The notes under the pieces are model-generated. The model saw only the letters and a list, made by a program, of their open reading frames with translations, was not told where the DNA came from and did not search any database. Made by a program: the position numbers and the translations under genes. DNA of 42,236 nt from a virus, in IMG/VR virus record IMGVR_UViG_3300025087_000156, positions 1-42,236 of that record; one strand, written 5' to 3'. This document shows positions 3,582 to 19,842 of the stretch, one piece after another (position 1 is the first letter of the stretch; each line of letters starts with the position of its first letter).

Positions 3582-3618
3582 AACTCTCACTAATCTCACG
3601 ATTGGTGAGAGTTTTTAT
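3582..3618 (+). terminator. Rho-independent terminator of the late operon
   Basis: A 14-bp stem (AACTCTCACTAATC with GATTGGTGAGAGTT, one G-T pair), 4-base loop TCAC and TTTATTTT tail. It lies between the convergent lipoprotein gene and the - strand gene ending at 3615. On the - strand there is no T-run, so it acts mainly rightward. Confidence 0.85.
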
Positions 3619-4094
3619 TTTAATAATAGCTCTTGATATTCCTTTTTAATTCCAAGTATATTTTTTATAAAACGCTCTCTACTTTGCGGTGAATGAAATC
3701 TCTGTGGATGTATTTTAGGGAACATTTTTAAGTAACTTTCGATTTGCTTTATTACATATTGCTTATTATTAAAAACATCATTATTGGTAAATCTTAATAC
3801 TAAATGCCCCTTACTGTGAATGTATGCGTCTTGCCGAATATCCTTTTGCATTTGCTCTCTGCAATTATGATATTCACCATCTACTTGAATATATAAATTA
3901 CACTTTGACTTACCTTTCGTTTTTATTAGTATATCAGGTATTATAGAACCTATAATAGATTGATAGATTGGAACTATTCCTAAATCATACATAATAATCT
4001 TTAGCATTTCAAGTTCTGCTAATTGGGGATGTCTGCGATTATATATCTTATAGTGTTGTAATTTATCTCTTGATACTAAATTATGTTTATTCAT
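3615..4094 (-). CDS. DUF559/Vsr-like PD-(D/E)XK endonuclease-like protein
   Basis: The 159-aa protein follows AAAGGAG. Its core matches the DUF559/very-short-patch-repair fold: PDILI at 53-57, LYIQVDGEYH at 67-76, and RFTNNDV at 101-107, the usual LRFTN(N/D)-V signature, followed by a final helix. In most relatives the second motif is (I)ELDG; here Gln70 replaces the Glu, so activity may be altered. It probably nicks or cleaves DNA. It sits directly after an HNH gene, and such pairs behave as selfish endonucleases in phages. Confidence 0.7.
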   Translation of the reverse strand: MNKHNLVSRDKLQHYKIYNRRHPQLAELEMLKIIMYDLGIVPIYQSIIGSIIPDILIKTKGKSKCNLYIQVDGEYHNCREQMQKDIRQDAYIHSKGHLVLRFTNNDVFNNKQYVIKQIESYLKMFPKIHPQRFHSPQSRERFIKNILGIKKEYQELLLK

Positions 4095-4121
4095 TGATTA
4101 ACTCCTTTCTCTTAATCAGCG

Positions 4122-4475
4122 TTAGCCAGAGCTTAAGTTGGGTAATTCATAGTATTGGGGACATTTTCTACCTTTATCCCAGTAAGTTCGTCTAATCCAT
4201 TTCTTTATCCTTTTTTTTATTCGTTTTGTTTTTTCTCGTATGGATTGATTTATAGGTAGATTATGTATTAGATTATGGCATTCTCTACATACTGCCATTA
4301 AATCGCTTAAATATTCCTTACTAATTCTCTTATATGTTAGATGATGAATATCTATTTTTACTAAACGATAGCAGATACTGCATTTTCCTTTATACAATTT
4401 AGATTGTCTAAATTTATTCTTTGTTTCTTTCCAATGATTTGATATTAAATAATTCTCTCTGTAACTTTTATTCAT
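4122..4475 (-). CDS. Small HNH endonuclease
   Basis: The 117-aa product has the full HNH zinc framework: CSIC at 32-35, IHHLTY at 43-48 with the two histidines, VCREC-H at 62-67 and a final His at 71. The N-terminus is basic. It is likely a DNA nicking or cleaving enzyme, free-standing homing type. The start has no clear ribosome site: the base-paired GTGAGGAC of the upstream hairpin is about 20 bases away. Transcription from 4591-4620 would have to pass a terminator at 4481-4526 to reach it, so expression may be conditional. Confidence 0.85.
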   Translation of the reverse strand: MNKSYRENYLISNHWKETKNKFRQSKLYKGKCSICYRLVKIDIHHLTYKRISKEYLSDLMAVCRECHNLIHNLPINQSIREKTKRIKKRIKKWIRRTYWDKGRKCPQYYELPNLSSG

Positions 4476-4480
4476 TATGC

Positions 4481-4584
4481 AAATAAAAAAGTCCTCACGG
4501 TATCCAGCTAAAGATTGTGAGGACTTAAATATTAGGTCGGATATTCACCAACCTTTTATTTTCGCTTAATAGCTGGATACCTAA
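4481..4584 (-). ncRNA. Predicted structured small RNA with interleaved (pseudoknot-like) stems and terminator
   Basis: Read leftward: strand A GGTATCCAGCTA (4581-4570), a 7-bp hairpin AGGTTGG/CCGACCT (4554-4533), strand B AAGTCCTCAC complement pair (4526-4517), strand A' TAGCTGGATACC (4510-4499), strand B' (4498-4489), then TTTTTTATTT. A/A' is 12 perfect bp and B/B' is 10 perfect bp, and they interleave as A-B-A'-B'. B/B' plus the T-run is a terminator whose 18-base loop contains A'. A promoter-like site ends at 4591, which would start RNA right at strand A. It is either a free RNA of about 100 nt or an attenuating leader of the HNH gene. Confidence 0.6.
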
Positions 4585-4590
4585 TATACC

Positions 4591-4620
4591 CTATCGTCAG
4601 AAGTCAAGTAAAATCTTTAA
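4591..4620 (-). promoter_or_regulatory. FliA-type promoter candidate for the small RNA
   Basis: On the - strand, TTAAAGATT (4620-4612) is followed after 15 bases by CGATAG (4596-4591). It resembles the sigma-28 pattern TAAAGTTT...GCCGATAA and shares both boxes with the site at 19712-19740. The likely start is near 4584, at the first base-paired strand of the RNA. An overlapping TTGACT...TATTAG could be read by sigma-70 instead. Confidence 0.5.
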
Positions 4621-4621
4621 T

Positions 4622-4668
4622 ATTATTTATAAATAATCCTTGACAGCCCTTTCTGAATTAACTTAAAG
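4622..4668 (+). promoter_or_regulatory. Promoter region of the sigma gene with palindromic operator candidate
   Basis: A perfect 16-base palindrome, ATTATTTATAAATAAT (4622-4637), lies 2 bases before a consensus TTGACA (4640-4645). After 17 bases comes a weak -10, TTAAAG (4663-4668). The palindrome could bind a regulator of the sigma gene. The -10 is poor, so the promoter may need help. Confidence 0.4.
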
Positions 4669-4680
4669 TATCCCCCCAGA

Positions 4681-5337
4681 ATGAAATGCAGTATCTTGAA
4701 GCATGATACAATAGTCAAAGAATACCTACCGCTTGTGATAAATGAAGCAACGCATTTTGCTAAAGCCGTCCCCCAATCTGTGCAGATAGATGACCTTATA
4801 CAAGAGGGTAGTAAGGGATTGCTTGACGCTATTGATAAGTTCGATACAGCAAGAAATGTAAAGTTTGGCATATATGCAAGGATACGGATACGAGGTGCGA
4901 TTTATGATTACTTAAGACGATTACTAAAAAGTAGAAATGTATTTAATACGCAAAAACGGATAGATACATTTTCTCAAGGATATACATTAGAGCATAATCG
5001 CTTGCCAAGTGATGATACGATAATGCGTAAAGTAAGTATAACAAGAGAGCAATTATATTTCTCTCGTAATATCAATAATGATGACCGTCAGGGCTATACG
5101 ACAGAGCCGTCAGTCAAAGATGATTACTTCCCTTCGGAGTTGATAGATTATATGTGCAAATATCTACCAAAACGAGAGGGGCAGATAATCGAGCTTCGTT
5201 ATATTCAATCCCATACGCTTAAAAAAATAGGGGTTATGTTACAGTTGTCCGAATCGAGAATATGCCAACTACACATAAAAGCATTACAAAGAATAAAGGA
5301 AGTTATTAAAAGCAGACCTCAACTCATTGCATCATAG
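4681..5337 (+). CDS. Phage-encoded sigma-70-family sigma factor (FliA/SigB type)
   Basis: The 218-aa protein has region 2 at about 14-82 (YLPLV, DDLIQEGSKGLLDAIDKFD at 37-55, then YARIRIRGAIYDYLR) and region 4 at about 160-208 (LPKREGQIIELRY, helix-turn-helix LKKIGVMLQLSESRICQLH). A short region 3 lies between, and region 1 is absent. This size and pattern fit alternative sigma factors of the flagellar/stress group. It should bind host core RNA polymerase and redirect it to phage late promoters such as 19712-19740. It is the only + strand gene inside the - strand early block. No ribosome site precedes the ATG and there is no other start in frame, so translation may be near-leaderless. Confidence 0.9.
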   Translation: MKCSILKHDTIVKEYLPLVINEATHFAKAVPQSVQIDDLIQEGSKGLLDAIDKFDTARNVKFGIYARIRIRGAIYDYLRRLLKSRNVFNTQKRIDTFSQGYTLEHNRLPSDDTIMRKVSITREQLYFSRNINNDDRQGYTTEPSVKDDYFPSELIDYMCKYLPKREGQIIELRYIQSHTLKKIGVMLQLSESRICQLHIKALQRIKEVIKSRPQLIAS

Positions 5338-5364
5338 GAAGAAATCCCACAGTTGCCCTAATTT

Positions 5365-5670
5365 TTAAGGTTTGCTTATAAGTTCGTGGCATAGCTCCGA
5401 ACAGAAATCGGTCTGCTTATTACTTATAAACTTTTTTGCACAGAAGACGCATTCAGTTGCTCTCGCAATTTCACTGCTTCCGTTCGTGCCTTTTTTTACC
5501 ATTCGTATATCTTTCCTATTATTATAATTCCATCTACACCCTTTTTGACAAAATTTCTGCTTACCCCGTATACGCTTAAAGTATCGACCACAATTACTAC
5601 AAATTTGGGACAATCCAACCAGTTGAAATGAAAATTGATAATTTAATCCAGTTATCTCATCTATGGGCAT
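5365..5670 (-). CDS. Double zinc-knuckle protein (101 aa)
   Basis: Two similar Cys modules are visible: CSNCGRYFKR...KFCQKGCRWNYNNR at 24-52 and CVFCAKKFI...DFCSELC at 74-94. The CxxC...FCxxxC layout with a trailing Arg/Asn-rich helix is a known zinc-binding fold in phage and mobile-element proteins and probably contacts nucleic acid. GAGGGG precedes the start. It ends 27 bases from the convergent sigma gene, and a promoter candidate lies at 5701-5728. Confidence 0.7.
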   Translation of the reverse strand: MPIDEITGLNYQFSFQLVGLSQICSNCGRYFKRIRGKQKFCQKGCRWNYNNRKDIRMVKKGTNGSSEIARATECVFCAKKFISNKQTDFCSELCHELISKP

Positions 5671-5700
5671 TTTAATACCCCTCTGGCAAGTTACACGCTT

Positions 5701-5728
5701 TTACTATCTAATTACATTGTCTTGTCAA
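5701..5728 (-). promoter_or_regulatory. Sigma-70-like promoter candidate
   Basis: On the - strand, consensus TTGACA (5728-5723), 16-base spacer, then TAGTAA (5706-5701), about 30 bases before the gene ending at 5365. The -35 is perfect and the -10 is weak. It could give the zinc-knuckle gene its own transcript. Confidence 0.4.
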
Positions 5729-5738
5729 TAATATTGCC

Positions 5739-6335
5739 CTACAGCCCCGATAAACCTCGAATAATGCCCCTATTTCCTATAGAGGTGGAGGCAAGGGCTT
5801 CATTTTCATCCATTTCAATGTTAATGCCCTGCTTTAACTCATCTATTCTATGTTGTAATGTTTGACTATCTTTTATACCACCTTTTACATAAAGTAAAGT
5901 ATCTAAAGCTCTTCCATATTTATTTATTTCGGCTTGGCATTTCCAATAAGTTAGCTTAAATTCCCATTTTGTCCACTCACTATGGAGACCTTTAATATCG
6001 TGGCAATCTTGACATAACAAAATATAATTACATACGGCATCCACACCACCTGCCTGTAGAGGCGTAATATGATGGACTTCTGGATTTAGTCCATTCTTAC
6101 ATAAAGGATTCATACATTCATAATCAAAAAACTTTTTATATGTCCCCATTAAATAAGCCCTTCTTTTATTTTTGCTCATTCTCCTATCTTCTCCGAAACA
6201 AATAAAGGGCAGGGTGCAACGATAGGAACGGATTCTGAATTGCTTCAGAAGACGTGCTACAATTTCCCTGCCCAGTATTATTAACTTGTTCCATTTATCC
6301 TTCCAATCGTTGCTATATATATATCGTCTATTCAT
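5739..6335 (-). CDS. HNH endonuclease
   Basis: I start at ATG 6335, behind AAGGAAAA, rather than the upstream GTG at 6380; this gives 198 aa. The HNH core is CMNPLC at 74-79, EVHHITPLQAGG with His88-His89, NYILLCQDCH at 103-112 and His118. The N-terminal about 65 residues are very basic, as in DNA-binding extensions of homing enzymes. The C-terminus is a charged helix. It likely makes double- or single-strand cuts in DNA. It follows directly on an 18-codon ORF that looks like the start of a DNA methyltransferase, suggesting insertion into or replacement of such a gene. Confidence 0.85.
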   Translation of the reverse strand: MNRRYIYSNDWKDKWNKLIILGREIVARLLKQFRIRSYRCTLPFICFGEDRRMSKNKRRAYLMGTYKKFFDYECMNPLCKNGLNPEVHHITPLQAGGVDAVCNYILLCQDCHDIKGLHSEWTKWEFKLTYWKCQAEINKYGRALDTLLYVKGGIKDSQTLQHRIDELKQGINIEMDENEALASTSIGNRGIIRGLSGL

Positions 6336-6346
6336 TGTATTTTCCT

Positions 6347-6403
6347 TCAATACTTGAGAGTTTCTAATGCAGACCCGCACAGTATCTTATTCTCTATGTC
6401 CAT
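6347..6403 (-). pseudogene. Possible remnant of a DNA methyltransferase N-terminus
   Basis: ATG 6403 opens an 18-codon frame ending in TGA at 6347. Its translation MDIENKILCGSALETLKY resembles the first strand of N4/N6 DNA methyltransferases (NKIxxGDALExLK), with the catalytic-core Asp replaced by Ser. The expected following segment is missing and the HNH gene starts 11 bases later. The stretch is short, so chance similarity cannot be excluded. Confidence 0.3.
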
Positions 6404-7237: not shown

Positions 7238-8161
7238 TCACTTTCTCTTCAGCATACTACTATCCAATATAAAATTTTGCCCTGCTGGTAATATCATAAC
7301 CTCTATCTTATCACCCAACTTTTGTATCAGAGAATACTGAACGAGCTCAGGTGTTAATGATTCAGATAGTTTCCTATTAGCTTCAGCTTGTTTTTCAGCT
7401 ATAGATAAAATCGCATTTCCCTCCCCCCTTGCTTTCTCAACGGCTTGGTCAGCCTGGTTCTTAACAATTTTGATTTTCTGCTCCTCTTCCAATGCCCTTT
7501 GTGTAGCAATCTGCTTGGCTTCAATCGAGGTTTCAAATGCGTTAGAGAAATCTATGTTGTCAAGCAATAAGTCAACAACAGTTATGGAATACGATGATAG
7601 TTCGCCCTTCAACTTCTCGCTAACTGTGTGCCGAATTGCCTCTCTATTGGGGGCTATATCGACACTTTTATACTTAACTATTTCATCCTTAAAGTTTTGT
7701 GATACTCTCGGCTCTACTAATGTCTCAAACCATTTAACCCCTACAGTTCTGTAAAGCTCCTGAATTGTCTCAGGGCTAACCTTAACATTAAGAGATGCCA
7801 TTACAAGCACGGTTTGTGTTTCTATGCTAAACGATTCTAATCTCCCAAACACGTGCCTTTGCACCTGTATATTAGCTATTACGACTTTTCTATAAGGCAG
7901 AATGAATTGAAGTCCTTCTGTGATTTGCCCCTTAATTGAGCCAAACTCATACACTACTCCGATATGTCCTGCAGGTATTTGGTAGAGCGAGAAACTAATT
8001 GTTGCAACAATAATTATCGCTATAGATACCAGCAGAGATATATTAGTAATGAGCAATCTGTTTGCCTTGATTCCGCCACCCGCCTCTACTATTCTCACTA
8101 TCGTAAATTTAATTATAAAGTATAGTATAACCGCTATTAGTAGCCATACAAAATACATCAT
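7238..8161 (-). CDS. SPFH/prohibitin-like membrane protein
   Basis: The 307-aa protein has two N-terminal membrane helices (2-22 and 38-60), then the SPFH core beginning IPAGHIGVVYEFG at 62-74 and GLQFILPY at 83-90, and a long charged coil (about 210-265) with IEAKQIATQRALEEEQK and AEKQAEANRKLSESL. This is the layout of prohibitin, HflC and stomatin, which form ring-shaped membrane scaffolds and restrain FtsH-type proteases. In a phage it may protect phage proteins, reorganise the membrane or block superinfection; this is inference. Two alternative ATG codons, 8161 and 8158, are adjacent. Confidence 0.85.
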   Translation of the reverse strand: MMYFVWLLIAVILYFIIKFTIVRIVEAGGGIKANRLLITNISLLVSIAIIIVATISFSLYQIPAGHIGVVYEFGSIKGQITEGLQFILPYRKVVIANIQVQRHVFGRLESFSIETQTVLVMASLNVKVSPETIQELYRTVGVKWFETLVEPRVSQNFKDEIVKYKSVDIAPNREAIRHTVSEKLKGELSSYSITVVDLLLDNIDFSNAFETSIEAKQIATQRALEEEQKIKIVKNQADQAVEKARGEGNAILSIAEKQAEANRKLSESLTPELVQYSLIQKLGDKIEVMILPAGQNFILDSSMLKRK

Positions 8162-19512: not shown

Positions 19513-19599
19513 CCCTCTATAAAAAAAACAGCAGAGGGTAGGATGAAAACGCCCCGCCGTGCCTTTCGACATAGCGAGAGATGTAGCCCTACCCCCTGC
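19513..19599 (-). promoter_or_regulatory. Attenuator-like leader of the replication operon
   Basis: On the - strand, GCAGGGGGTAGG (19599-19588) pairs with CCTACCCTCTGC (19542-19531), 12 bp with one G-U, followed closely by TTTTTTTT (19528-19521), a terminator. The same downstream strand (CCCTCT) can instead pair with AGAGGG (19518-19513), part of the G-rich ribosome site of ATG 19499. So the leader can either stop transcription or hide the ribosome site. Confidence 0.55.
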
Positions 19600-19640
19600 A
19601 ATTTTAATTATTCTTTTCATAAAGCGTTTTCATAAAAGGA

Positions 19641-19669
19641 ATAATACTGCCTGTTTATAGTTATGTCAA
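19641..19669 (-). promoter_or_regulatory. Strong sigma-70 promoter for the replication operon
   Basis: TTGACA (19669-19664), 17-base spacer, TATTAT (19646-19641): one base from the ideal pattern. RNA would start near 19634 with a leader of about 135 bases. Host polymerase should read it at once after infection. Confidence 0.75.
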
Positions 19670-19711
19670 CAAAAATCGTATAAATAATTAAAAATAGTTT
19701 CACATACTTTG

Positions 19712-19740
19712 TTAAAGATTTATAGTTCTGATGTCGATAG
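19712..19740 (+). promoter_or_regulatory. FliA-type late promoter candidate at the head of the virion operon
   Basis: TTAAAGATT (19712-19720), 14 bases, CGATAG (19735-19740). It resembles the sigma-28 consensus TAAAGTTT...GCCGATAA with a spacer one base longer, and shares both boxes with 4591-4620. It is placed right for rightward transcription of packaging and virion genes by the phage sigma factor. Confidence 0.55.
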
Positions 19741-19842
19741 GCGAACTGTGGAGAATGGCACATCCTTTTTTAAGAGCTTGCCTGAAAAGGTGGAGCATAA
19801 GAATAAGAATTTTAGTTGATAAGGAAAATGGAGAATGGAAAA

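Follow-up and report, generated by a model that had tools for sequence, protein, structure and literature searches.

A predicted late small RNA gene with interleaved stems beside a FliA/WhiG-family sigma factor gene in a phage genome

The short stretch at positions 4481–4620 (minus strand) of a virus of bacteria known from metagenome sequencing (IMGVR_UViG_3300025087_000156) is read here, with a probability of about one half, as a stand-alone late gene for a non-coding RNA of ~100 nt, driven by the phage's own sigma factor, the 5′ end of the RNA being captured by the loop of its own terminator. The whole record of 42,236 nt was analysed and is referred to below as the window. The reading as a late RNA gene under the control of the phage sigma factor follows from the promoter shared with the late operon and from the adjacent FliA/WhiG-type sigma factor gene. 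A more specific proposal is put forward only tentatively, namely that one of the two units carrying the exact promoter produces a small RNA dedicated to the late phase, locked end to end by a pseudoknot and serving as a stable regulator or scaffold. If this is true, the late sigma factor of the phage would control a single late operon together with a single small RNA, the latter belonging to the late programme by design and not as a by-product, and a terminator loop capturing the 5′ end would represent a compact route to a decay-resistant RNA.

Layout of the element

Two perfect inverted repeats, one of 12 bp (GGTATCCAGCTA/TAGCTGGATACC; 4499–4510 and 4570–4581) and one of 10 bp (AAGTCCTCAC/GTGAGGACTT; 4489–4498 and 4517–4526), interleave within a span of 93 nt and are followed by a T-run, in agreement with the coordinates and claims of the first-pass annotation. 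Read along the minus strand, the order is strand B (GGTATCCAGCTA, 4570–4581), hairpin C (4527–4561), strand A (AAGTCCTCAC, 4517–4526), the 6-nt linker AATCTT leading from A to B′ (4511–4516), strand B′ (TAGCTGGATACC, 4499–4510), strand A′ (GTGAGGACTT), the T-run TTTTATTT and the ATG of an HNH gene at 4475. Strand B is the perfect complement of 4499–4510 and strand A that of 4489–4498. Hairpin C consists of a 7-bp inner stem (AGGUUGG/CCGACCU), a 5-bp outer stem and the loop UGAAUAU, its predicted fold having an energy of −10.1 kcal/mol.

Strand A forms the 5′ arm of an intrinsic terminator, the end of which, recognised from its sequence as A′ plus the T-run, occupies 4481–4498. The A:A′ stem of 10 bp (−15.1 kcal/mol) is directly followed by the U-tract UUUUAUUU, giving a standard terminator apart from the loop of 18 nt, the terminator scan admitting loops of 3–8 nt. 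The claim that the first (5′) strand is complementary to this loop has been confirmed: 12 of the 18 loop nucleotides, i.e. B′, pair with B, and there is no gap between B′ and A′. The predicted RNA (4482–4582, minus strand; delimited from the promoter, the structure and the T-run, with a minimum-free-energy z-score of −3.8) contains no ATG-started open frame, and strand B would correspond to its nucleotides 2–13, i.e. to its predicted 5′ end. A coding reading of the element was dropped, there being no ATG frame in it and no upstream start for the HNH frame.

The interleaved perfect stems exceed chance. When the whole window was copied 300 times with a second-order Markov model, seven of the copies contained interleaved stems both of at least 10 bp and one reached a summed stem length of at least 22. 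In 20,000 dinucleotide shuffles of the local 205 nt separating the starts of the HNH and sigma genes, an interleaved pair of perfect stems, each of 10 bp or more, arose once; this local count leaves out the T-run, hairpin C and the promoter, which are additional coincidences. Concerning the strand, the z-scores of −3.8 (minus) and −4.0 (plus) are similar because perfect inverted repeats are symmetric, and they cannot tell the strands apart. The minus-strand orientation therefore follows from the T-run, the promoter and hairpin C, the latter holding one G–U pair on the minus strand and C–A at the same place on the plus strand.

The promoter, the sigma factor gene and their surroundings

The promoter-like sequence TTAAAGATTTTACTTGACTTCTGACGATAGG spans 4620–4590 on the minus strand and comprises a −35-like element (TTAAAGATTT, 4611–4620) and a −10-like element (CGATAGG, 4590–4596). 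Both are found, as an exact copy of the former and the same form of the latter, in a second promoter on the plus strand (TTAAAGATTT-N13-CGATAGG, 19712–19741), just upstream of the late operon and ~100 nt ahead of its first gene (~19.82 kb), in the switch region, where the early genes of the minus strand give way to the late genes of the plus strand. When the pattern TTAAAGATT-N12..16-CGATAGG was searched in the whole window and in 100 shuffles of it, TTAAAGATTT-N13/14-CGATAGG occurred in exactly two copies in the 42-kb phage and in none of the shuffles. The same sequence thus stands at another expected target of the phage sigma factor, the head of the late operon, and that copy recurs in six fragments of this phage (L002, L005, L015, L016, L023 and L025) recovered from other samples. 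Matches to the promoter pattern in IMG/VR outside the phage were judged to be due to chance, being scattered, by eye mostly within coding sequence and without a similar fold downstream.

FliA-type factors use promoters of the TAAAG/CGATAA type. The gene divergent from the RNA (4681–5337, plus strand), located between the small-RNA element and the early region, encodes an RNA polymerase sigma factor of the FliA/WhiG family: it contains the sigma-70 regions 2 and 4 (Pfam Sigma70_r2, 1.3e-15, and r4, 3.5e-13), its best PDB match is sigma-28 (1rp3, 1.1e-23) and its closest NCBIfam models are FliA (4.3e-41) and FliA_WhiG (1.6e-40), both below their curated cut-offs. The proposal of a FliA-type promoter has therefore been strengthened well past its original form, by the FliA/WhiG-like neighbour and by the sole other exact copy heading the late operon. 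From the identity of the promoter sequences and the family of the sigma factor we infer recognition and timing, the simplest reading being that the phage sigma factor would switch on the late operon and the small-RNA element together. With CGATAG at its usual position, the start of the RNA is placed by the usual −10 spacing at 4585–4582, so that strand B would be the 5′ end of an RNA of ~100 nt. At the small-RNA promoter site there is also an overlapping, weaker promoter of the sigma-70-like type (TTTACT-18-TATATT, 9/12), and a sigma-70-like match overlaps the late-operon promoter too, so the host polymerase might also use both.

The likely promoter of the sigma gene, TTGACA-18-TAAAGT at 4640–4669 (plus strand), would start the mRNA ~5 nt before the ATG, which suggests that this mRNA is possibly leaderless. 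A perfect 16-bp palindrome, ATTATTTATAAATAAT (4622–4637), lies exactly between the divergent promoters of the RNA and the sigma gene, and is a possible operator or UP-like element; TATAAATAAT recurs at 19679–19688, and the late promoter follows 24 nt further on. Just before that promoter there is also a second interleaved inverted-repeat pair (19543–19693; 10 and 11 nt), which is AT-rich and may be due to chance. A 13-nt perfect inverted repeat (AAATGCAGTATCT) connects 4373–4385, within the HNH gene, with 4684–4696, at the start of the sigma gene.

The HNH endonuclease-like gene (4122–4475, minus strand) starts just after the T-run and is followed by a gene for a DUF559 (Vsr/EDxHD-like) protein (3615–4094, minus strand) with a good Shine–Dalgarno (SD) sequence. 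In a survey of 46 gene starts, an SD-like match was seen at most of them and was absent at 4475 (minus) and 4681 (plus), in agreement with the earlier description of the element as lying between a sigma gene and an HNH gene without a ribosome site. The DUF559 and HNH genes are read as free-standing genes of the homing type, separate from the RNA. Four endonuclease-like genes—DUF559/Vsr-like, HNH, treble-clef HNH-like and HNH—are found on the minus strand around the sigma gene (3615–6380). A guide RNA of the IscB/IshB type, considered on account of a weak match of the HNH domain to IscB, was rejected, since only the HNH domain is present and the RNA terminates before the gene. Further along the minus strand, the gene at 7238–8161 encodes a membrane protein of the SPFH/Band 7 type (phrog_200), with which a protein from a 137-kb IMG/VR contig (L007) shares 58% identity.

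Folding and competing explanations

The H-type pseudoknot strand order B-A-B′-A′ is present, and whether both stems can be held at once hinges on the 6-nt linker. With B′ directly next to A′, the two stems can be stacked into a single helix. With the strands placed on an ideal A-form helix—a paper estimate—the linker must span ~44 Å, which with all 12 B pairs is impossible or requires it to be fully stretched; at 6.2 Å per link it is too short for all 12. With 1–3 pairs frayed at the far end of B, the cost of the linker is ~4–8 kcal/mol, rising to up to 11 kcal/mol for a longer path and a shorter link length. The duplex energies of A (−15.1 kcal/mol) and B (−13.7 to −20.0 kcal/mol) exceed this cost, and holding both stems is thus favourable on paper. 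On this model the pseudoknot with both stems is sterically possible, although only with 1–3 frayed pairs or a fully stretched linker.

In the preferred reading—that of a stand-alone late RNA—the FliA-type sigma factor would direct RNA polymerase to two promoters, near-identical in sequence, whose use we infer: one for the late structural operon and one for the RNA. The transcript would start at strand B or slightly ahead of it and end at the A:A′ hairpin with its T-run, after which the 5′ end (B) would pair with B′ in the terminator loop. The two stems would stack into a nearly continuous helix of ~20 bp, with a nick at the start of the RNA and both ends tucked away, the hidden ends presumably protecting the RNA from decay that begins at a free 5′ end. 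The main exposed parts would then be hairpin C together with two unpaired segments, UUAAGCGA and AAUCUU, and these may contact a target RNA or protein. The promoter elements shared exactly with the late operon alone (two copies observed, none expected), the adjacent FliA-family sigma gene, the stems interleaving beyond chance, the long U-tract after A′, the lack of an internal ATG frame and the position of B at nucleotides 2–13 all speak for this reading, whereas the short linker, the large terminator loop of 18 nt, the overlapping sigma-70-like promoter, the long promoter spacer and the lack of a convincing target among the phage gene starts speak against it.

The main rival, which we consider rather unlikely, is an attenuator leader of the HNH–DUF559 genes, with B:B′ as the antiterminator and A:A′ as the terminator, a signal or the speed of folding setting the late read-through. 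It accords with the T-run ending a few nucleotides before the HNH ATG and with the ensemble energies of the two states, which are nearly isoenergetic (−31.7 kcal/mol for the terminator state and −32.6 kcal/mol for the B:B′ state), B:B′ forming first in prefix folding, before A′ is complete. Moreover, the homing endonuclease genes of T4 are often silenced by RNA structure combined with late promoters (PMC2988022). The two stems, however, are not necessarily mutually exclusive: a pseudoknot may accommodate B:B′ together with A:A′, and B:B′ therefore need not block termination. In addition, the HNH gene has no SD sequence at a usable distance, the GAGGA in A′ being 16–17 nt off, so that read-through would translate it poorly—although the SD sequence of the DUF559 gene is a good one—and no ligand domain was recognised with Rfam.

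An antisense (countertranscript) RNA tempering the sigma gene, which would find its complement in the sigma leader of a plus-strand transcript coming from upstream and exert a negative feedback as in pT181 or with lambda aQ, is suggested by the position of the RNA, divergent from and just upstream of that gene, by a weak whole-length match to ctRNA_pT181 (RF00242)—the best one in a relaxed Rfam search, with 24.6 bits and an E-value of 0.32—and by the plus strand carrying hairpin C and then TTTTATTTT, as an attenuator might. We regard this role as quite unlikely, because the likely sigma promoter—the only good one on the plus strand (4640–4669)—is located downstream of the RNA gene, so that the sigma mRNA would be leaderless. 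A consensus scan, in which starts were not mapped, revealed no plus promoter of comparable strength upstream of the RNA (i.e. of 4489); hairpin C holds a C–A mismatch on the plus strand, and the ctRNA_pT181 match is far under the family cut-off of 56 bits.

It is likewise improbable that the stretch acts as DNA—as a site of binding or recombination, or as what an endonuclease insertion left behind—with the RNA being incidental. Perfect inverted repeats are equally symmetric as DNA, and many endonuclease-like genes lie in the region, which also has the 16-bp palindrome between the divergent promoters; the copy of the promoter at the late operon, the well-placed start, a T-run on the appropriate strand and the G–U pair of hairpin C, however, all fit an RNA. 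That the repeats arose by chance in a short intergenic stretch behind an ordinary promoter, A:A′ being merely a terminator, is very unlikely: the window had been scanned for oddities, one of the 300 Markov copies matched the summed stem length and no relative confirms the element, but the local rate is 1 in 20,000, B is located exactly at the predicted 5′ end and B′ abuts A′ exactly. The least probable alternative is attenuation through a leader peptide (TTG/GTG…AATATT TAA, 8 or 7 codons) ending in strand A, where a ribosome would block A:A′, since, although the frame is present and has AAAAGG just ahead of it, frames this short often arise by chance, the ribosome would have to initiate inside hairpin C and there is no regulatory run of codons.

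Relatives and comparison with known systems

No Rfam family reaches the gathering cut-off in the window (0 matches), which bears out, as far as Rfam is concerned, the initial impression that no described RNA family has this layout, and no Rfam family with an end-to-end locked pseudoknot architecture was found. Protein scans of IMG/VR with the sigma factor, capsid, Band 7, portal, terminase and HNH proteins yielded no relative carrying the element—the scans used exact short peptide patterns, by which diverged relatives can be missed—and returned either pieces of this phage itself at 100% identity, of which none covered 4.5 kb, or distant unrelated contigs. Scans of GTDB with the capsid and RecT proteins gave no relative, and blastn against INPHARED and PLSDB gave marginal stretches of 21–38 nt alone, without a relative carrying the element. 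A 17-mer from B′A′ that matched an unrelated coding stretch in a GC-rich contig was taken as a chance match. Concerning targets, the prediction against the phage gene starts gave only one match clearly beyond the null, the element itself before the HNH gene, and no convincing phage target of the predicted RNA was found among those starts.

The promoter resembles those of FliA (sigma-28) in its TAAAG-type −35 and CGATA-type −10 elements and in the FliA/WhiG-family sigma gene adjacent to it. It differs in the spacer of 12–13 nt between the octamers—the spacer of the E. coli FliA promoter being 11 nt—in the −10 element G(A/T)CGATAGG and in serving late phage genes. With ctRNA_pT181 the element shares two hairpins, the second being a terminator with a large loop, as well as the local matches CUCACAA.CUUU and UUUUUAUUU, whereas a replication gene as its target is lacking here; we know of no member of that family in which a 5′ strand pairs with the loop of the terminator. 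The preQ1 and fluoride riboswitches are pseudoknotted attenuators in which a stem near the 5′ end overlaps the terminator. The overlap of stem and terminator through a pseudoknot close to the 5′ end would be common to them and the phage element, although the latter matches no Rfam riboswitch and its stems of 12 and 10 bp are much longer.

In the leaders of the T4 endonuclease genes I-TevI, mobE and segB, a hairpin hides a real ribosome site and the late transcripts lack the hairpin (PMC2988022). A late promoter and an RNA structure before an endonuclease gene are predicted here as well, but the structure is a terminator and the ribosome site is absent. Lambda OOP and aQ and the c4 RNAs of P1 and P7 are small phage RNAs complementary to a neighbouring mRNA (PMC12197685), in a review of phage regulatory RNAs from which the word "pseudoknot" is absent. 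The predicted RNA is divergent from the sigma gene and does not overlap its likely mRNA, which sets it apart from OOP, aQ and c4; as small phage RNAs beside a regulator of late genes, these nevertheless appear to be, by analogy, its nearest functional counterparts.
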